Assembly (NCBI RefSeq): GCF_041379045.1
Contig: NZ_CP166871.1
Coordinates: forward strand, 1,860,001 to 1,924,000
Length of the DNA: 64,000 nucleotides
Reading direction: 5' to 3'
Source: Thalassotalea ponticola
GTDB lineage: Bacteria; Pseudomonadota; Gammaproteobacteria; Enterobacterales; Alteromonadaceae
Part shown: piece after piece, positions 4,838 to 64,000 of the stretch
Numbering within the stretch: the stretch's first letter is position 1
Layout of the letters: each line of letters opens with the position of its first letter
Translations under genes and position numbers: made by a program
The notes under the pieces: generated by a model
What the model saw: the letters and a program-made list of their open reading frames with translations, nothing else
What the model was told of the DNA's origin: nothing
Database searches by the model: none

Positions 4838-4914
4838 TCCCCTGTAGCTCAGTTGGTTAGAGCGGTGGACTGTTAATCCATGTGTCGTCTGTTCAAATCA
4901 GACCAGGGGAGCCA
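4838..4914 (+). tRNA. tRNA-Asn(GTT), copy 1
   Basis: 77-nt cloverleaf with encoded CCA. The acceptor stem TCCCCTG pairs with CAGGGGA, the anticodon loop is CTGTTAA with GTT, and the T-arm has GTTCAAATC. It is the first of five identical copies and the one nearest the promoter. Confidence 0.97.
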
Positions 4915-5000
4915 CTTTATAGAATTGATATAACGTCGATTCAAAAATAATGGCTGATATTATAAAATTTCGTATAGTAGAAGCGGTTATAAAGTTTTAT

Positions 5001-5077
5001 TCCCCTGTAGCTCAGTTGGTTAGAGCGGTGGACTGTTAATCCATGTGTCGTCTGTTCAAATCAGACCAGGGGAGCCA
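5001..5077 (+). tRNA. tRNA-Asn(GTT), copy 2
   Basis: Identical in sequence to copy 1, with the same GTT anticodon and encoded CCA. The 86-bp AT-rich spacer before it is unlike the other spacers, so copy 1 stands apart from the regular 113-bp array that begins here. Confidence 0.97.
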
Positions 5078-5113
5078 CTTTTAAAGAGTTGATTTACTCT
5101 AAAACAAAATCAT

Positions 5114-5190
5114 TCCCCTGTAGCTCAGTTGGTTAGAGCGGTGGACTGTTAATCCATGTGTCGTCTGTTCAAATCAGACCAGGGGAGCCA
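5114..5190 (+). tRNA. tRNA-Asn(GTT), copy 3
   Basis: Identical to copy 1. The 36-bp spacers on both sides are near-identical (AGTTGATTTACTCT core), showing that spacer and gene were duplicated together as a 113-bp unit. Confidence 0.97.
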
Positions 5191-5226
5191 CTTTCAAAGA
5201 GTTGATTTACTCTAAAACAAAATCAT

Positions 5227-5303
5227 TCCCCTGTAGCTCAGTTGGTTAGAGCGGTGGACTGTTAATCCATGTGTCGTCTGTTCAAATCAGACCAGGGGAG
5301 CCA
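5227..5303 (+). tRNA. tRNA-Asn(GTT), copy 4
   Basis: Identical to copy 1, exactly 113 bp after copy 3, with the spacer repeated unchanged. It is probably processed from one long precursor. Confidence 0.97.
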
Positions 5304-5339
5304 CTTTCAAAGAGTTGATTTACTCTAAAACAAAATCAT

Positions 5340-5416
5340 TCCCCTGTAGCTCAGTTGGTTAGAGCGGTGGACTGTTAATCCATGTGTCGTCTGTTCAAAT
5401 CAGACCAGGGGAGCCA
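5340..5416 (+). tRNA. tRNA-Asn(GTT), copy 5
   Basis: Last intact copy, 113 bp after copy 4. It is followed after six bases by a strong intrinsic terminator (5423-5448) that ends the array. Confidence 0.97.
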
Positions 5417-55733: not shown

Positions 55734-56035
55734 TGTGGTACATGATATACGGCGAAGACGTAGACAACTCGCTCGACAATCGTTTGGCGGTGCGCGATAA
55801 GCACCTTGAGCGCTTGCAAACATTGCAAGCTCAAGGCCGGTTGCTAGTAGCAGGTCCCCTACCAGCGATTGATTGCGACGACCCAGGCACTTCAGGCTTC
55901 ACGGGCTCGTTGCTGATTGTTGAGTTTGACTCGCTTGATCAGGCACAACAGTGGGCTGAGCAAGACCCGTACGTCGACGCAGGTGTTTATAAAAAGGTTA
56001 CGGTTAAACCATTTAAGAAAGTGCTTGGTATCTAA
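55733..56035 (+). CDS. YciI-like protein
   Basis: A 100-aa protein of the YciI fold (ferredoxin-like alpha+beta). [11 protein letters not shown] near residue 21, then [22 protein letters not shown] and D-P-Y near residue 82 are the family motif; the His and Asp residues form a putative active site. Function undefined. It overlaps yciB by one base. Confidence 0.93.
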
Positions 56036-56100
56036 ACTAATAGCTTTGGTCGGTAACGCAATAAAACAGAGCAAGCCCTAGCTTGGGCTGATATCAAATT

Positions 56101-56127
56101 AAGGATCTAGGACACTAGATCCTTTTT
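56101..56127 (+). terminator. terminator after yciI
   Basis: AAGGATCTAG, loop GACA, CTAGATCCTTTTTT: a perfect 10-bp stem with a T-run. Confidence 0.95.
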
Positions 56128-56281
56128 TATTTGTTTATAAAATACATTAACTTGTTGGAACATTGAAAAAATCGTAGGTAAAGCGCCTATTTTCTGAACT
56201 ATGCAAAATAATTGTTTTATAGTGGTTCGAATGTCGGCGATGTGTCATTCAGGCCCTTAGCCAAATTTGAAAAATAGCTCC

Positions 56282-56580
56282 ATCATCCCATCATGCCATC
56301 ATGCTTTTAGATAGAATCTATTCTAGTTTCGAGGTGACCTGTACACCCGAGTTATGCCAACCAGAGTTAGCCACAATGTCAGAAAAAGAACATCGTCATT
56401 CCATCATGTTTTTAGATGGAATATTCTCCAGTTTCTATGTGGTTTGACCGGCTGTTTTGTGCCACACAGAGACATCAACAAAATCAGAATAATAAGGCCG
56501 TCATCCCATCATGCTTTTGGATGGGATCTCCTTCAGTTTCGATGTAGCTTGACCGGCCGAAAAGTGCCAGTAAGAGACGA
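56282..56580. repeat. three diverged copies of a hairpin repeat
   Basis: Copies begin near 56282, 56392 and 56498. Each has a CATCCCATCATGCTTTT-like arm followed by GATGGGAT/GATGGAAT, then TCCAGTTTC-like, and in copies 2 and 3 TTGACCGGC and GTGCCA. The best copy (56498-56580) folds as ATCCCATC/GATGGGAT. Sequences of this type are widespread as interspersed repeats in Alteromonadales and Vibrionales. Copy 1 is the most decayed. This is most of the 560-bp gap after yciI. Confidence 0.75.
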
Positions 56581-56595
56581 TTAACAGTGAGTGAG

Positions 56596-57327
56596 TTACT
56601 TACCACCAGCTAAATCTATAAATGAACCCGTAACATATGAGGCTTCATCAGAAAGCAACCATAAGATCGCATTTGCAACTTCATCAGGAGTCCCTCCTCG
56701 TTGAAGAGGGATTTGTGGTGAAAGGCGGTCAACTCTATTAGCTTCTCCACCATCCGCGTGCATATCGGTATAAATAAAACCTGGTCTAACTCCGTTAACC
56801 CTAATACCCATTGATGCAACCTCAATTGATAAGCCTTTAGTTAAAGTATCTATAGCTCCTTTTGATGCTGCATAGTCAATATACTCAAAGGGGCTTCCAG
56901 ATCGTGATGCTGCTGATGACACATTTACAATAGCCGCACCTTCGTTCATATACTTTAATGCTTCACGACAACATAAAAAGCAGCTAGTGATATTAGTAGT
57001 TAATATTTTATTGAATCTTTCAACACTAATTTTTGATATTGACGCTTGCTGAAAAAGGATTCCAGCATTATTTACTAGGTGAGTAACTGAACCATAAGTA
57101 TTTTTCACAGCTTCAAACAAAGCTATAACATCACTTTCGATGGACACGTCAGCTTGGAATGGAAATGCTTTACCGCCACGATCGCAAATATCGTTAACAA
57201 CGGATTCTGCTTGTGCTTTATTCGATTTATAGTTAACGCAAACTGCAAAGCCCTTAGCGGCAAGTAATTTAGAAGTAGCAGCCCCAATTCCTCGACTGCC
57301 TCCAGTTATGACAACTACTTTTTTCAT
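56596..57327 (-). CDS. SDR family oxidoreductase
   Basis: A 243-aa short-chain dehydrogenase/reductase. The NAD(P) motif V-I-T-G-G-S-R-G-I-G-A-A-T begins near residue 5, N-N-A-G near 88, the catalytic Ser in N-V-S-S-A-A-S-R, and Y-A-A-S-K near residue 155. It ends with Y-V-T-G-S-F-I-D-L-A-G-G, as in FabG-like and glucose dehydrogenase-like enzymes. Substrate unknown. The gene is noticeably AT-richer than the housekeeping genes and sits at the left edge of the accessory region. Confidence 0.92.
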   Translation of the reverse strand: MKKVVVITGGSRGIGAATSKLLAAKGFAVCVNYKSNKAQAESVVNDICDRGGKAFPFQADVSIESDVIALFEAVKNTYGSVTHLVNNAGILFQQASISKISVERFNKILTTNITSCFLCCREALKYMNEGAAIVNVSSAASRSGSPFEYIDYAASKGAIDTLTKGLSIEVASMGIRVNGVRPGFIYTDMHADGGEANRVDRLSPQIPLQRGGTPDEVANAILWLLSDEASYVTGSFIDLAGGK

Positions 57328-57447
57328 TTCATTCCCTGTGTAAATTGATAAATCTTAGATGTCTCTTATTCGCTCAAAGCGGAAGTTTTCCGCTCACCTG
57401 TATTCATCCTAATGATTGAAAGCACCTTGTAAAGAGTTATTAATAAA

Positions 57448-57480
57448 AAAGCGTCAAATCTAAAAAGATTTGACGCTTTT
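57448..57480. terminator. hairpin beside the left inverted repeat
   Basis: AAAGCGTCAAATC and GATTTGACGCTTT form a 13-bp stem with a six-base loop, flanked by an A-run and T-run. It lies 5 bp before the 24-bp repeat at 57486 and could terminate transcription in either direction. Confidence 0.8.
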
Positions 57481-57485
57481 GCTCA

Positions 57486-57509
57486 GGTCCACAAAAGGTA
57501 AATAGCTTG
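57486..57509 (+). repeat. left 24-bp inverted repeat of the accessory segment
   Basis: GGTCCACAAAAGG and the following 11 bases (TAAATAGCTTG) are an exact reverse complement of 61865-61888. Together the two copies bound a 4.4-kb segment. No transposase or recombinase is seen between them. Confidence 0.8.
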
Positions 57510-57655
57510 ATCTTCGATACTTTTCTTTTTCCTCAAAGCTTCAATGGTCCATCAACGCGAATAAAACCCTAAACCAATTAAAGGGGGGCTATAATTTTTT
57601 ACAACTCCTCTTTGGTCGATAATATAACCAACCCAAATAACCAAGAGAATCAACC

Positions 57656-58123
57656 ATGGACTGCTACGAAGAGTTAGACACCGACGCAAGAGACGAAAAG
57701 TTTCACTACACGTTAAGAAACTTCATTAACTACCTTGAAAGTACACACGATGACGATTGGACGATTGATGTCGTCAAAAATAAAGCTGGAACAAAAAACT
57801 GTCTGTTTGGCCACTTATGGGATTTTGCCGGCGGAAACGACAACGAAGAAGCTGGAAATAGGCTTTGGGATTGGTTCGAGTCAGCAGTTTCGACCACTCA
57901 TTATGTCTACCCGATCAATGACGGGAAAAATCCAAAATACCAACAAGAAACACCCAAACTTCGATGCATCCATTTCCTGAAAGACCTCTACAACGGCAGA
58001 GAACTAACGACATTCGAAGGTATCGATAAAGGCATGTTCTTAATGCGCAAAGAAGAAGGCGACATGTCAAAAGCCTACAGAACGGTCAGCCCATGGCATT
58101 CAGCCCTAAACATCCCCGCATAA
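57656..58123 (+). CDS. hypothetical protein (155 aa), phage-like style
   Basis: The 155-aa product is soluble and acidic, with no signal or membrane helix. Visible: D-E-K-F-H-Y-T-L-R-N-F-I-N-Y-L, C-L-F-G-H-L-W-D-F-A-G-G, an internal W-F-E-S and Y-P-I-N-D-G. The C-L-F-G-H-L core and the final repeated-helix pattern slightly resemble the DUF6197 phage proteins, but I do not trust that assignment. It starts soon after the left inverted repeat (147 bp) and is the first gene of the segment. Confidence 0.6.
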   Translation: MDCYEELDTDARDEKFHYTLRNFINYLESTHDDDWTIDVVKNKAGTKNCLFGHLWDFAGGNDNEEAGNRLWDWFESAVSTTHYVYPINDGKNPKYQQETPKLRCIHFLKDLYNGRELTTFEGIDKGMFLMRKEEGDMSKAYRTVSPWHSALNIPA

Positions 58124-58132
58124 AGGAACACC

Positions 58133-58151
58133 AGGCGCTATTATGGCGCCT
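58133..58151. terminator. hairpin after the 155-aa gene
   Basis: AGGCGC and GCGCCT pair over a seven-base loop 10 bp after the stop codon. No T-run follows, so it may only be an mRNA-stabilising hairpin. Confidence 0.4.
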
Positions 58152-58270
58152 CCCTCACCAATTCCAAACCCTACCTATCCCAATAATCGACGCAAATATA
58201 AGTGCCTTTTCTTTAGGTATATCAACAACATACGATACTATTTTACGTATCAACAGTTTGGAGATTCGCT

Positions 58271-58815
58271 ATGACAAAAGAATTAAGTGACTTGAAACCA
58301 CCAAGCATCGATATCGGCACCCGTGACGCGAAGCCACCGATTTTCGTAAAGAGTTAATCACAAACGCATGGAGGAAACTATGCAAGACATCAGAGTTTAC
58401 TAACCGAGGCAAAATATGAGATTAAAACACACAGAAAGGTTCGCCGAAGAGACAAAAGTTTACGGGCGAGTACAACTGGCACTTAATTCACGCGATATTG
58501 TGCGCCCTACCCACTAAGGCACTGATTATGAGCCTTAACTTTGACGATTTATTCTTATACCAACAAGATAATCGACATACAGGAGCTTTTAGTGATGAAG
58601 ACTTTATTTAAAAGACACGCCAATGAAGGCTCAACCGAGTCCGTCTAATGAATGCTTCCACTAGGCTGACTAATTCAGGCAACATCAACGTTGACATTGG
58701 AGCTTAATCAATATGAAAGTAGGCATTTGGGACAAACCAATTAACAACCATAAAGAGCCTTGACATGAACTATTCAGAACAGAAATGGGATCAACTTATC
58801 AAGGTCGGCGGTTAG
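58271..58815 (+). other. run of tiny ORFs with ribosome binding sites
   Basis: Successive frames: 58271-58357 (28 aa, MTKELSDLKPP...), 58416-58517 (33 aa, after GAGG), 58528-58611 (27 aa), 58595-58648 (17 aa, after AGGAG), 58648-58707 (19 aa, its ATG sharing bases with the previous stop), 58713-58763 (16 aa) and 58765-58815 (16 aa). Several starts overlap the preceding stop, as in coupled operons. None resembles a known family. They could be true microproteins or peptides, or the remains of a decayed gene; base choice alone cannot decide. Confidence 0.35.
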
Positions 58816-58869
58816 AGATGAAAAACCTGGCGTCTAATCAGGTCAGACATAATAGTGAACACTTAATAC

Positions 58870-58898
58870 ATTCGAGGCACAGTCCTCGGATTTTTATT
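58870..58898 (+). terminator. terminator after the tiny-ORF run
   Basis: CGAGG, loop CACAGT, CCTCG, then GATTTTTATTT. A 5-bp stem with T-run, weak but well placed. Confidence 0.6.
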
Positions 58899-59074
58899 TA
58901 TAAAGGTGAATTTTTGACTTGATGCTTGGTTGAGTTAACTTAGCCTACATAAAGGAGTCGAATAATGCTTTAAGCAACAACAGGAAGCGATAAAATATAT
59001 CAGTATTCAATTACGCAACCAAAAATAACCATAAACCTCTTTCTAATTGTCGAGGCGCTAAGGCCCGCCCAACA

Positions 59075-59113
59075 TCAAGGAAAGTCGGTTAAGACACCCT
59101 CCTTGACTTTTTC
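59075..59113 (+). terminator. second terminator before the lipoprotein gene
   Basis: TCAAGGA and TCCTTGA pair over an 18-base loop and are followed by CTTTTTCTT. The 58816-59190 gap contains no other gene. Confidence 0.6.
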
Positions 59114-59190
59114 TTATAAAACAATAACTTATAATTTGTGAAGGGAGTTGTACCACATACTAAATTAACTGTAAAAAGGAATTAATAGCA

Positions 59191-59814
59191 ATGAAAAATA
59201 TTAAGGATAAACTGTCTAGAACGTTAGTATTAGTAATCTCACTATTGACGCTTGCCAGCTTAAGTGGCTGCCAACTGTCAAATTGCACAAGGACTGGCGC
59301 GGCCGAAGGGAAAATTGAAGGAGGCGAGGTTTCTGGAAGAGTAGAAGGAAGAATAACTTGCCCAGGGACACCACATGAAGCGAGAAACGACTTATTTAGT
59401 CCGTTACAAAACCTAGTATATGCATTCACTGAACAAACTTTCGAAGATTTCGATTTTGAAGAGTTCAATGTTAAACTTGATATAACTAACGGATATGTTC
59501 CAGGCCAGACAGGCACGATAGAAATTAACCTGACTGAAGATGGGACCACACTAGTCACCGACAGCTTTCCGATCAGCATCAGCAATGGCATTGCTACACT
59601 TTCTAACCCTCAAGCAGTAAAACTTTGGGCATCCAGTTACGACGGCATTATGACTGGCTTTACATATGAAATTTCTGATATTGGCATTCAATCCGGCGGC
59701 GGCGGCATAACCATTGTTAAGACAGATCGCTATGGTACTGAAGTATACGCCTCACAATCAGCATACGTAGCCGGCCCAAATGATGGCTGCTTCCGCTTTT
59801 GTATTGAAAAGTAG
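59191..59814 (+). CDS. lipoprotein of unknown function (207 aa)
   Basis: Lipoprotein signal ending L-S-G-C with the acylated Cys at residue 27. The mature protein begins with cysteines (C-Q-L-S-N-C and R-I-T-C) and a Gly-rich alternating segment A-E-G-K-I-E-G-G-E-V-S-G-R-V-E-G-R that suggests short beta strands. The rest looks like a beta-sandwich with G-I-Q-S-G-G-G-G near residue 167 and two more cysteines (C-F-R-F-C) at the end. No family recognised. An AAAAGGA ribosome binding site precedes the start. It may be functionally paired with the next lipoprotein gene, 66 bp downstream. Confidence 0.65.
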   Translation: MKNIKDKLSRTLVLVISLLTLASLSGCQLSNCTRTGAAEGKIEGGEVSGRVEGRITCPGTPHEARNDLFSPLQNLVYAFTEQTFEDFDFEEFNVKLDITNGYVPGQTGTIEINLTEDGTTLVTDSFPISISNGIATLSNPQAVKLWASSYDGIMTGFTYEISDIGIQSGGGGITIVKTDRYGTEVYASQSAYVAGPNDGCFRFCIEK

Positions 59815-59829
59815 TTCGCCTCTTAGGCT

Positions 59830-59850
59830 ATAGCCCCGAAACAGGGGCTA
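59830..59850 (+). terminator. hairpin between the two lipoprotein genes
   Basis: TAGCCCC, loop GAAAC, GGGGCTA with no T-run behind. It lies in the 66-bp gap and could attenuate transcription into the downstream gene. Confidence 0.45.
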
Positions 59851-59880
59851 TTACTAATCACCCAATATCAGGCACGAATT

Positions 59881-61821
59881 ATGCGGTATCGTATTCATCT
59901 AATAATCACATTGCTGGCACTTACCTCCGGTTGCTCTTCCTTGAAAAGCCAACTCCTAGAAGGTGAGTACGACGAATTAGCAACCAGTAATACTAGCCAA
60001 CACGCCGTAATAAAACTACCATTACTACCCATCTTGCTTAAGAGTGAGAAAAACGGGGTCAAGAAAGATATAAAATTCTGCAAGGAAATAGAAATCCCCG
60101 CCCGAGTCAGCCTAACCATGAGGTTCGATTGCGACTTAGGAGATAAAACCGTTAACACTTATACCCAAGTGTTTGAAAAGTACCACCATCAACTAATAGA
60201 GGCGACCAACCAAAGCTCACTATCTAAGTATTTAAACACAACCACTGATTTGTGCGTGTCTATCGTTGAAAACTCCACACAGTTTTTACGCAACAAACCC
60301 CTATCACCATGCGCACATATAGTTATTCCTCACTTAGAGCAGGACACTAAAGAGAAATCGAACAGTGAATTTGATGAGAGCGCATTTTTCCACATAAGCA
60401 TCCTGAGAAGCTACTACCCTTTCATATTTCACGAGCTATATCATACAGGCACTGAAATTCAATACCTAAACAGAAACTCTGCAATAATTTCCGAAGAATA
60501 CCACGCGTATATATTAGACAACTTCGTAAGTAATTTGATAAGCCAGTTGGTCACCAAAAAGCCATTCGCAATTAGCATTAACTATGATGAAAACTCACAA
60601 AAAACAATCGAAAGCTATCTAGCTCTATGCAAACAACCAGAAAAACTGGACGATTTCTTATCTGAGTTCCATTCATACGAAATGCTTTCAGTGTTTGGTC
60701 TTTCGCTTCATGAGACTGAAACAAAACTAATAGCCCCCTCAACCGGGCTTTTGAATTATTATTACTTGTGGCAATTTCAACAGGAGCTTTCTACTACTGA
60801 GCAATTAAGAGATATTTTGCAATCATGCAACCCTTCGAGACTGACATCTAATTACGCCCTAAAACTCCAATTGCTTGATTTTGATTTCTCCGAAGCGTTG
60901 CATCCGGGTGACAATGTTAAATTGAATGCTTTTAACCATCATCTATCGGAGTTGACCAGCAGAAAGCAAAGCCCCTTCGAAAATTTAGCATACTGCAATA
61001 AGCTTAGTTACCTACCGTTAACCGAGCAACTTTGCCAAACCCACGCCATCGACCAAGTCGCTCTACAACTCTATCGACTAAATGATTTTGACAGTAACAA
61101 TTATCACCTACCAAACATTCTGTCAGAACGGCTGGAACACTTAAAACAAGATTGGCTTCAATTAAATCCGCACAAAGCAAAACTAAATTCAAATGGGAAC
61201 CTGTACGAATTAAACCCCGAAGGCCGTTTTACGAACTCCTATAATTGGGTGGCGGACACTGGTGCACCCCTAAATGTATTCACCTCCGGAGAAAATGAAT
61301 GCTCTTTGGACGGAGAGATGGCAGCTAAAGGCTTGTTTATGCAAACGGTCTCATTAAAACGGTGCAATACCCATGAACAGTTAGGTGTAATTTGGAAAAA
61401 TGAAAAACAAAGAGAGAACGTTATAGGGTTCCCTTACTTGGCACACACTAACGCCATCATGTCTAAATCAGCGATAAACCCATATGAACCGACAGAAAAG
61501 ATCCCTTACATTTATTACCAGGGCATGCCAATAATCCAACAACACCAAAATGGAGTCAGACTTAACCTATGCTTTGATACAGGGAGCAAAAGGTCATACA
61601 TAACACCAAGGTATCGAGACCGGTATCTACTCACGAAAACTGAAATAGTCAAAAGACTTCAAAACGGAAAGCTCGAAATAACCATCAATAATAAAAAGGG
61701 AAGGGTTTCAGTATTGAACCACAATGCATTTATTCAATGCGATGTGATCGTTGGAAGCGATCTAGTTGAGATCTACAGCGCTGTACAATTTACATTTGAT
61801 GAAGTCAATTTATGGTATTAG
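59881..61821 (+). CDS. lipoprotein with zincin and aspartic-protease motifs (646 aa)
   Basis: Signal MRYRIHLIITLLALTSGC gives an acylated Cys18, so it should be membrane-anchored outside the cytoplasm. Two protease signatures are visible. H184-E-L-Y-H188 (HExxH), with E205-E206 some 17 residues later, fits a gluzincin-type zinc peptidase. The C-terminal third has V-A-D-T-G at D459 with V-I-G at 514-516, and F-D-T-G-S at D566 with V-I-V-G-S-D-L at 622-628; each is a retropepsin-like DTG plus hydrophobic-hydrophobic-Gly pair, so two lobes could form one aspartic active site. I know no family with both. It is last in the inverted-repeat-bounded segment and AT-rich relative to the core genes. Alternatives: pseudoenzyme or a chance HExxH. 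Confidence 0.7.
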   Translation: MRYRIHLIITLLALTSGCSSLKSQLLEGEYDELATSNTSQHAVIKLPLLPILLKSEKNGVKKDIKFCKEIEIPARVSLTMRFDCDLGDKTVNTYTQVFEKYHHQLIEATNQSSLSKYLNTTTDLCVSIVENSTQFLRNKPLSPCAHIVIPHLEQDTKEKSNSEFDESAFFHISILRSYYPFIFHELYHTGTEIQYLNRNSAIISEEYHAYILDNFVSNLISQLVTKKPFAISINYDENSQKTIESYLALCKQPEKLDDFLSEFHSYEMLSVFGLSLHETETKLIAPSTGLLNYYYLWQFQQELSTTEQLRDILQSCNPSRLTSNYALKLQLLDFDFSEALHPGDNVKLNAFNHHLSELTSRKQSPFENLAYCNKLSYLPLTEQLCQTHAIDQVALQLYRLNDFDSNNYHLPNILSERLEHLKQDWLQLNPHKAKLNSNGNLYELNPEGRFTNSYNWVADTGAPLNVFTSGENECSLDGEMAAKGLFMQTVSLKRCNTHEQLGVIWKNEKQRENVIGFPYLAHTNAIMSKSAINPYEPTEKIPYIYYQGMPIIQQHQNGVRLNLCFDTGSKRSYITPRYRDRYLLTKTEIVKRLQNGKLEITINNKKGRVSVLNHNAFIQCDVIVGSDLVEIYSAVQFTFDEVNLWY

Positions 61822-61864
61822 ACGGAACTGAACTCCGAAAGCACAAAAACATATGCCAAGAAAG

Positions 61865-61888
61865 CAAGCTATTTACCTTTTGTGGACC
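61865..61888 (-). repeat. right 24-bp inverted repeat of the accessory segment
   Basis: CAAGCTATTTACC and the following 11 bases (TTTTGTGGACC) are an exact reverse complement of 57486-57509. It lies 43 bp after the protease-like gene. The immediate flanks share only CA, so no clear target duplication is seen. Confidence 0.8.
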
Positions 61889-61931
61889 CAGAATTCCGTC
61901 CAAGGCAGGAAAAGCTTAGGGTGCAGAGATT

Positions 61932-61966
61932 AATACTCAGACGTATATTTGTCTGAGTATTTTTAT
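61932..61966 (+). terminator. terminator downstream of the accessory segment
   Basis: ATACTCAGAC and GTCTGAGTAT form a perfect 10-bp stem over an eight-base loop, followed by TTTTTATT. It lies outside the right inverted repeat. The rest of 61822-62170 shows no supported gene. Confidence 0.93.
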
Positions 61967-62170
61967 TGGTTGACTTGTAGAGGTATGCGACCGCTTTGTG
62001 CCAATAGCTGCCTGTTAGCAATTGCTAATATACGCTGGTTTCGAAGTGTTAACGCCTCGTTAAAAGGTCGCCAACTTACAACCACCTATCCTAATCAAGC
62101 CACCGTAAACAGTGATGCTATTATGATTGCCGTGCGTTGGCAATCCTGCTTAAACGGTTTGTTATAAACA

Positions 62171-63082
62171 CTACTCAAAGATTTCGTGAATATAGTCTTT
62201 GGTGTTTTCCACTGCTTCATTTATGGCATCTAAGTTGATATCAATGGAGTTATCAGGGTAGATAAAGCCTTCGTTAATTCCATATCTTGAATCTAATAGA
62301 TCCAATATTTGCGTTTTTAGAGAAGCTGGTATTTTGTAAACATTTCTTCCTGGATGGTAAGTCATCTCGGAAATGTTAAACATAGATAAGTCATAAGGGA
62401 GTATGTCAGCGTTGTATACAAATACACCCTCTTGATGTTGGATTCGTCGATTATATTTTACGTTATCAACTTCGATTATTGGCGTAACCAAATTTAGACC
62501 CGTAGGTGATATCGTCGTTTTCATGTCAACAATAGACTGTGCCAATTCTTCATTGGTCATTCGTGTATAACCAGCTCCACCTGAAAGGTAAATATCAAGT
62601 AAGCGTTGAATATGTTCATGGATATTTGATTCATATACTACACAATCTTTGTCGAGATTCTCTTCACACGCAAAATATAAAGCAATTTTTGCATTTAATG
62701 TGAAATCTATAACATTTGTCGGTAAGCCATAATGTTGAGCCAAATAGATCAAGGTATTAGTTGGTAGACTGATAGATCCTAGTTTTTTTAGTTCTTCTTT
62801 AAAACGATTGATGATTAAGAAAGATTTTTCGACATAGTCGACTTCATCAATATTTGGAAAGGATTGTTTTCTTGCTGCATCAATTACCACATCATGCCAT
62901 TCTAGACCTTTTTTATTCCATACATAATGGCGATAGTAACTAGAAATACAGATAAAACCACTATCAGACATACCACGATAATAATAGCCTGATGGTTTAT
63001 CTGGCATTAGTTTTTCAACGACTTGCTCAATCGTTGATAGCTCTTTTGTATACCATGCTCTGAATGGGAAATCTGGCAACAT
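62171..63082 (-). CDS. FRG domain-containing protein
   Basis: A 303-aa soluble protein with an FRG domain: Y-Y-Y-R-G-M-S near residue 33, the conserved L-A-Q-H-Y-G-L-P-T-N-V-I-D-F-T-L-N-A-K-I-A-L-Y-F-A-C (residues ~111-136), and R-R-I-Q-H-Q-E-G-V-F-V-Y near residue 215. FRG proteins occur in phages, plasmids and genomic islands, often with defence genes, and are suspected to act on nucleic acids or nucleotides; no activity is established for this one. An AAGGAT ribosome binding site precedes the start. Confidence 0.88.
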   Translation of the reverse strand: MLPDFPFRAWYTKELSTIEQVVEKLMPDKPSGYYYRGMSDSGFICISSYYRHYVWNKKGLEWHDVVIDAARKQSFPNIDEVDYVEKSFLIINRFKEELKKLGSISLPTNTLIYLAQHYGLPTNVIDFTLNAKIALYFACEENLDKDCVVYESNIHEHIQRLLDIYLSGGAGYTRMTNEELAQSIVDMKTTISPTGLNLVTPIIEVDNVKYNRRIQHQEGVFVYNADILPYDLSMFNISEMTYHPGRNVYKIPASLKTQILDLLDSRYGINEGFIYPDNSIDINLDAINEAVENTKDYIHEIFE

Positions 63083-63303
63083 ATCCTTGTCTACCTTTGC
63101 GGTGGGTTATTGTAAACAATAAGCCATACAATTAATGTTAACTTATTGATGATGAGCAACATAGTTCGGGTGCTTATAGCAGTTTATTCTTTTGACACTT
63201 GCTGAATGACTGCAGCTCGCTCAAAGCCGCCGTTCTCTACTGACCATTAATCAATAACTTACGCTATTTAACCAACAGGCGCAAATGCGCCATTAGGCGA
63301 GTC

Positions 63304-63840
63304 TTAATCAATATTTAAACTGTGGATTAAACGACCGCGATAATCGTAACCTTTAGACTTATAAAAGGCTAATTCGACAGCTTTAAATGAATCTAAATGA
63401 GCAGCAATCATAGGAATAAACCCACTTAAAGCGACAAAAGGGCCTATATTGGCATCAGTTAAATAACCATAGTCATGAAGTAACCAATGGTTAAAATTAA
63501 AGTGCTTAGAAAAAATAGCAACTCCAATCGCAAAAGTCAGTGACAAGTAATACTTAAACCATTGTGGTTTATTGAATTTCCATAAAATCCTAGATAGTTT
63601 TGAAAACAAAATTATAAATAAATATATTGCTAAGACTCCTAATATCGGAGCTTCCATCTCTAGGATTGCACTTCGTAATATTGCGATTAGGTTATTATTC
63701 GTGATATCAGAAACATCTGTTCCCAAATAAAACATAAATATTGGGGCTAAATAGAGAAATATCGCCCTTGGATGGAATGCCATATAAGCATTTGCTTGCT
63801 GAATGATATCTTCAGGTAAAGATTCTACTACTTTCATCAT
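63304..63840 (-). CDS. membrane protein of unknown function (178 aa)
   Basis: A 178-aa protein with about four hydrophobic segments (residues ~25-40, 60-82, 98-115, 128-150) and polar ends. The N-terminal region reads L-P-E-D-I-I-Q-Q-A-N-A-Y-M-A-F-H-P-R; the C-terminal tail Y-K-S-K-G-Y-D-Y-R-G-R-L-I-H is cytoplasmic and basic. I do not recognise the family. It follows the same strand as the FRG gene but with a 221-bp gap. Accessory membrane proteins next to FRG genes are sometimes defence effectors, which is only a hint. Confidence 0.6.
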   Translation of the reverse strand: MMKVVESLPEDIIQQANAYMAFHPRAIFLYLAPIFMFYLGTDVSDITNNNLIAILRSAILEMEAPILGVLAIYLFIILFSKLSRILWKFNKPQWFKYYLSLTFAIGVAIFSKHFNFNHWLLHDYGYLTDANIGPFVALSGFIPMIAAHLDSFKAVELAFYKSKGYDYRGRLIHSLNID

Positions 63841-64000
63841 TTTTTCTTACAAATACTATGTCTACTCTTCGCTCTAAGAAGACATTAACCTTTTCAATAA
63901 GATAACGTCAATTTAGTACCATTAACTTCCCATTGGCAATATACGTTTGTTGCGGTTACGGCAATGGCTCGCCAAATTCATCAACTTTCTTGCCCCACTT

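Follow-up and report, generated by a model that had tools for sequence, protein, structure and literature searches.

Facing ends of two decayed transposons as the probable origin of a perfect 24-bp inverted repeat in Thalassotalea ponticola

The DNA analysed here, which we call the window, is a stretch of 64,000 nucleotides from the Thalassotalea ponticola genome (contig NZ_CP166871.1, positions 1,860,001 to 1,924,000) that contains a perfect 24-bp inverted repeat bounding 4.4 kb of sequence. A sequence-only reading had taken the 4.4 kb for a non-autonomous mobile element or an island. Our main finding, to which we give a probability of about 0.84, is that the arms come from two decayed transposons of one family, arm 1 being the right terminal inverted repeat (TIR) of the first and arm 2 the left TIR of the second, with the 4.4 kb as the DNA lying between them. 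The left transposon would extend leftward from arm 1, with a short-chain dehydrogenase (SDR) gene as its likely passenger, and the right one rightward from arm 2, with an FRG-domain gene; the two ends would derive from two separate insertions, each of which may have lost its far end to decay. The TIR match, the orientation of the TIRs in relatives, the target duplications and insertion sites, the lack of a detectable transposase and the short gap between yciI and perM in most relatives are all computed results. The locus is locally ordinary mobile-element debris, most likely left between two convergent genes after one transposon family had inserted there several times.

Results

The two arms (arm 1, 57486..57509, minus strand, GGTCCACAAAAGGTAAATAGCTTG; arm 2, 61865..61888, plus strand) are reverse complements over 24/24 positions, as had been claimed; they are separated by 4,355 bp, and the stretch including both measures 4,403 bp. 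By our estimate an exact 24-bp inverted match is expected by chance about 1e-7 times in 6.5 kb, in line with the earlier view that coincidence is negligible. At up to 3 mismatches the 24-mer has only these two copies in the 3.35-Mb genome, and the same genome is its sole match among 394 genomes of the order, which sample a larger group. In viral contigs a 20-mer from the arm had no match, the interval 57300-62200 had no DNA match in plasmid records at E 1e-5, and Rfam gave no match for 56000-64000 at E up to 1. The search that the sequence-only reading had proposed finds the exact 24-mer only here, and in diverged form it finds the TIR of a transposon family in relatives.

The diverged 24-mer, followed by a terminator-like hairpin, was found in relatives within a genus comparison of 15 genomes (14 besides T. 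ponticola, G000), and six complete elements of the family were recovered there and beyond. In G009, where a pattern search gave pairs of the TIR motif facing inward, one element of 9,972 bp has the perfect duplication GGATTATCC and carries, besides a 572-aa transposase-like gene, genes that by eye are those of a MerR-type regulator, of cation transporters and of Czc-like efflux; a second, of 434 bp, contains no frame of at least 70 aa and has the duplication GTGCTCCGG/GTTCTCCGG. The G014 element (3,836 bp; GCCTTTCGG, perfect) holds a transposase-like gene and, by eye, a serine-hydrolase-like gene, and the G001 element spans 1,029 bp (AGGGTCAGC/AGGCTCAGC). The remaining two lie in G045, a genome from a different genus within the same taxonomic family (2,996 bp; ATAATGCGGG, perfect), and on a Marinobacter plasmid (2,043 bp; GCTTGATCT, perfect). 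The duplications are 9 bp long in five of the six (three perfect, two with one mismatch) and 10 bp in G045, and a putative transposase gene lies inside four of the elements, namely the longer one of G009 and those of G014, G045 and Marinobacter.

These relatives tell which way a TIR points. In all six, the outermost bases, where element and target duplication meet, are CAAGC or CAAGG. In the window, CAAGC forms the inner edge of both arms and GGTCC stands at the outer edges: arm 1 ends in CAAGC at 57509 with its body toward lower coordinates (right-end type), and arm 2 has CAAGC at 61865 with its body toward higher coordinates (left-end type). A TIR matrix trained on 15 other ends, with the window arms excluded, gave the arms 29.6 bits, within the training range of 15.1-35.2, against a maximum of 15.0 in five one-strand shuffles and 15.5 at the best unrelated place in 104 kb of chromosome. 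The terminator-like hairpins of both arms likewise lie on the side away from the 4.4 kb, at 57447..57480 (minus strand) just inside arm 1 and at 61932..61961 (plus strand) just inside arm 2. The order at arm 2, in which the TIR is followed by about 40 nt, the terminator and a CCGCTTTGTGCCA-like stretch, is by eye that of the left ends in G009 and G001. Because the CAAGC termini point inward and the terminators outward, the element bodies should lie outside the arms, with the 4.4 kb as their common neighbour.

The same observations bear on the possibility that the element is 57486-61888 itself, non-autonomous, with GGTCC at its termini and dependent on mobilisation in trans. A perfect inverted repeat with no recognised transposase inside would suit such an element, but its outer edges are not the TIR termini, CAAGC being inner; the TIRs of the six complete relatives have the opposite orientation, the terminators stand on the wrong side, and there is no other copy. 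When the 4.4 kb is taken as the element, no flanking duplication is seen (7/9 positions differ, and only 2 bp, CA, agree). We regard this reading as highly improbable. The earlier inference of a mobile 4.4-kb element was right that the arms are mobile-element ends and wrong as to the side on which the elements lie.

A pattern derived from the TIR, CAAGSYATTDACCTNNNGTG, matched 26 places in the 15 genomes at up to one mismatch, compared with 2 for the reversed control. A terminator-like hairpin was detected on the inner side of 13 of these matches and on the outer side of one. We judged 15 of the 26 to be true ends, 12 of them with a detected inner terminator, the others being both ends of the 434-bp element and one in G012. 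A relaxed form of the pattern separated poorly from its control (30 vs 22 in G000 among the matches listed) and was set aside. The terminator-like hairpin that follows both arms and several of the relatives could also mark the 24-mer as a conserved RNA element preceding terminators, such as a 3' untranslated region element or a small RNA. That account fares worst of all, since the relatives occur as paired inverted copies with target duplications, some enclosing a transposase-like gene, and Rfam has no match.

Most of the sites into which the complete relatives inserted resemble terminators themselves. A terminator detector called five of the six sites once these had been rejoined (the 434-bp element's on the minus strand only), compared with 136 among 3,000 length-matched background stretches, and the folding energy was reached by only 1/300 shuffles at the site of the 9,972-bp element, 0/300 in G014, 0/300 in G045 and 2/300 in G001. 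An AAAAA run lies 9-30 nt outside the TIR at both window arms and, counting them, at 17 of 22 chosen ends, compared with 5.7% of random positions. Each window arm has its TIR and inner terminator; of the target hairpin only the A-run side is seen, the other half being missing.

The nine bases adjoining each arm on its inner side, ATCTTCGAT (57510..57518) and CCAAGAAAG (61856..61864), may be the remaining copies of the 9-bp target duplications of the left and the right element, respectively. They differ at 8/9 positions, so the inner edges share no duplication. This matters for a further account, in which a single ancestral transposon supplied both arms as its two ends; what remains of a small replicon, introduced through a cointegrate or by inside-out transposition, would then make up the 4.4 kb, in the order right end, backbone, left end. 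One right-end and one left-end arm, identical TIRs and the lack of any far end are what that account predicts, and the 155-aa gene inside the 4.4 kb, with relatives in viral contigs and plasmids, would fit a replicon. The differing inner edges speak against it, as do the unlike contents of the two bodies and the presence of a further element end within the 4.4 kb, and we consider it unlikely, while giving it more credit than the other two alternatives.

Several observations weigh against our preferred interpretation of two separate, decayed transposons. The far partner of neither arm is recognisable by matrix in 55.5-65 kb, and a mismatch scan and anchoring on the presumed duplications found none; both partners must therefore have been lost. 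The sequence CAAGCCC near 56068, noticed by eye, might mark a left end but is too weak a candidate. There is no further TIR copy in the genome at up to 3 mismatches, and the perfect identity of ends belonging to supposedly separate elements has nothing behind it except shared transposase specificity. The A-run count takes in both ends of some insertions, which are not independent, and the ends were chosen by hand; moreover, the run is absent at two ends of a second subfamily in this genome. The TIRs of the G001 element are unlike at 5/20 positions, which is why the TIR pair scan, allowing up to 4 mismatches, missed the pair. The detector sees no terminator at the Marinobacter site, folding energy is weak evidence there (10/300 shuffles) and at the 434-bp site (16/300), and in shorter stretches the G001 and 434-bp sites fell within the shuffle range. 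Among the 26 pattern matches, ten fall within open frames of at least 142 aa and are probably chance, none having an inner terminator; L141, the source of one of the 13 inner terminators, is a doubtful case, and the sole outer terminator occurs at a true end (L094, in G012).

Nothing in this genome matches the putative transposase of the TIR family at E 0.001. The co-located protein of the complete elements, which we infer to be the family's transposase, is encoded in a single frame of about 570-860 aa and may be distantly like IS1. NCBIfam gave weak IS1 matches in three of five proteins scanned (E 4.6e-7, 1.3e-6 and 0.0049; 30, 16.8 and 28.5 bits, short of the model's cut-off of 100 bits); the two DnaQ-fused proteins had none to IS1 among the matches listed, and Pfam gave no transposase match for the five. 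Residues D219, D358 and E454 are invariant in seven aligned proteins, as are other acidic and non-acidic residues, and the 572-aa protein had no relative in the PDB at E below 0.19. An N-terminal DnaQ-like 3'-5' exonuclease is fused to L124 (850-3228) and to L126 (812-aa frame), with Pfam RNase_T matches at E 6e-32 and 1.5e-28; by eye, L179 and L180 start with a similar DnaQ-like part.

Matches to the putative transposase occur in 6 of the 15 genus genomes and, at E up to 1e-30, in 7 of the 394 from the order; 122 plasmid records have one, all but one of these below 60% identity, as do 2 phage records. The relatives come from several genera of the order and from plasmids of Marinobacter, Acidovorax and Polaromonas, with distant ones in Gram-positive plasmids; among the annotated plasmid records listed, the proteins are named hypothetical protein or insertion element protein. 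Among genome contigs the TIR-type pattern was found in three, of which two bear the title Thalassotalea sp. and the third Crocinitomicaceae. Acidovorax (L188) shows two CAAGCC ends, yet the pair scan gave no pair with a duplication, and Polaromonas (L187) presents the same picture; the G001 transposase copies L125 and L128 have no CAAGC-type end at their common start.

Behind arm 1 the left element reads, in order, TIR, hairpin, a promoter-like TTTACA-16-TAGGAT, an AGCGGAA/TTCCGCT hairpin (the promoter-like sequence and this hairpin forming a block at 57378..57433, minus strand) and the SDR gene (56596..57327, minus strand; Pfam adh_short_C2, 1.4e-56). Within the genus the block outside arm 1 is conserved in G010 and G008. 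It adjoins the TIR in G010 and G002 with no transposase between, in G009 a transposase gene lies between the TIR end and the block, and in G008 the block is present with no TIR seen. A scan for promoter-like sites found 6 vs 11.5 in shuffles, and given that deficit it is conservation that carries the promoter reading of 57378-57433. The SDR gene is likely a passenger of the left element; an 89%-identical protein is encoded elsewhere in G003, without the block.

The right element continues from its TIR through about 40 nt and the hairpin at 61932-61961 into a dispersed core repeat, an attC-like sequence and the FRG-domain gene. The core (GTGCCAATAGCTGCCTGTTAGCAATTGCTAATATACG here) and the attC-like sequence behind the FRG-domain gene occupy 61989..62171; the latter, at about 62045-62171, is a single copy that we take by eye to be attC-like. 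The core occurs at seven places in this genome, the window included, with further copies in the genus, and the copies at G000:311752, 1530741 and 3085852 look identical over about 200 bp.

Inside the 4.4 kb, at 58865..58980 (plus strand), lies a decayed right end of the second subfamily, comprising a terminator and a promoter-like part with no recognisable TIR. It agrees with the end at G000:312665 at 83/117 positions (71%; E = 5e-17), is related also to the end at G000:2278269, and reads toward two putative lipoprotein genes. The ends at G000:312665 and G000:2278269 have outer flanks identical over the 150 bp compared, so a larger segment may have been duplicated.

The 4,403 bp otherwise hold a gene for a 155-aa protein (57656..58123), a run of tiny frames, and the putative lipoprotein genes of 207 aa (59191..59814) and 646 aa (59881..61821), all on the plus strand and the lipoprotein reading being by eye. 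Family scans of these three main proteins matched no transposase, which bears out the statement that none lies inside, and Pfam and PHROGs gave no confident hit for any of them. They had been called orphans, and this holds for two: in a search of 5.8 billion proteins that requires shared 5-residue words, neither the 207-aa nor the 646-aa protein found any sequence other than itself, while the 155-aa protein found eight relatives besides itself. Relatives of the latter occur on 10 of 136 candidate viral stretches and in seven plasmid records, all of actinobacterial genera; a search of genome contigs found none of its family, and its structure model (mean pLDDT, the predicted local distance difference test, 72.9) matched nothing in the PDB at E 0.001 or below. 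By eye, the 646-aa protein combines HELYH (an HExxH motif) with FDTGS (a retropepsin-like DTG), and several of the tiny frames, at 58290-58830 between the 155-aa gene and the buried end, have a sequence like a ribosome-binding site.

All of this falls within an insertion region of 8,436 bp between the convergent genes yciI and perM, of which 56036..64000 lies in the window and the rest runs to 64471. All nine relatives compared, out of the 14 from the genus, have perM after yciB and yciI (gene names by eye). Six of them have a yciI-perM gap of 109-637 bp; in two it is 0.9-1.0 kb and includes an additional frame, and in G004 it reaches 5.5 kb, with frames above 150 aa that match no protein of T. 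ponticola. Since the gap is short in most relatives, the whole 8,436 bp is best seen as the insertion region and the 4.4 kb as a slice of it. The comparison of filled and empty sites gave no precise excision of the 4.4 kb, eight of nine relatives having a gap of at most 1 kb and the ninth that of 5.5 kb. The sequence-only reading had named a repeat confined to this place, with no empty-site allele in relatives, as what would count against it, and this is in part what was found: the repeat occurs only here in the genome, and the 4.4 kb is nowhere seen precisely excised. A repeat of about 90 bp with CAATAACTTACGCTATTTAA stands beside minus-strand genes at 63205-63300 and G000:1924262-1924345, about 1 kb apart (by eye). 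Elsewhere in the window, 4838-5416 holds a tandem array of five tRNA-Asn (gtt) genes.

Discussion

Taken together, the members of this family would share TIRs of about 24 bp starting CAAGC or CAAGG, target duplications of 9 or 10 bp, passenger genes and, usually, a terminator-like hairpin inside each end. IS1 likewise makes a 9-bp target duplication and has short TIRs. The complete relatives resemble it in their duplications of about 9 bp, their short TIRs and the weak NCBIfam matches, and depart from it in a single frame of about 570-860 aa, a best score of 30 bits against a cut-off of 100, a TIR start of CAAGC/CAAGG, element lengths of 2-10 kb, passengers in some and terminator sites. In limited full-text literature searches, thin on subscription papers, neither this family nor an IS1-like transposon that targets terminators was described.

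Other known systems share parts of this arrangement. Miniature inverted-repeat transposable elements (MITEs), for example MITEAba12 (PMC6382973), and passenger-carrying insertion sequences (IS), namely transporter IS as defined in PMC9330008 and mobile insertion cassettes, are similar in being short or transposase-less derivatives that make 9-bp duplications and share their TIRs with an autonomous relative. The window differs in that it has one end each of two unlike derivatives, and neither a partner end nor a transposase was found in the genome. Insertion of IS elements in repetitive extragenic palindromes (REPs) is reported in PMC1525189; these too enter extragenic palindromes, but the sites described here are individual terminators of differing sequence rather than copies of a single REP. 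A composite transposon also has DNA between two element ends, yet here the flanking elements were not found complete, their contents differ, and neither outer ends nor an outer duplication was found.

It is tempting to speculate that we are dealing with a widespread transposon family that selects intrinsic-terminator hairpins as safe sites, perhaps by recognising a cruciform or a transcribed hairpin. The terminators at its own ends would keep the host gene terminated, passengers linked to a promoter would be delivered behind host operons and may be expressed from the promoter-like block, and some of the transposases would be fused to a DnaQ-like exonuclease. We offer this wider proposal tentatively, at somewhat less than even odds.

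For the reading of genomes, the locus corrects a direction of inference, in that an inverted repeat can bound a stretch of DNA because two elements face that stretch. A second outcome is a transposon family that appears to favour transcription terminators. If real, this targeting would explain how passenger genes gather in the space between convergent genes (yciI and perM, for instance) while both are left intact.

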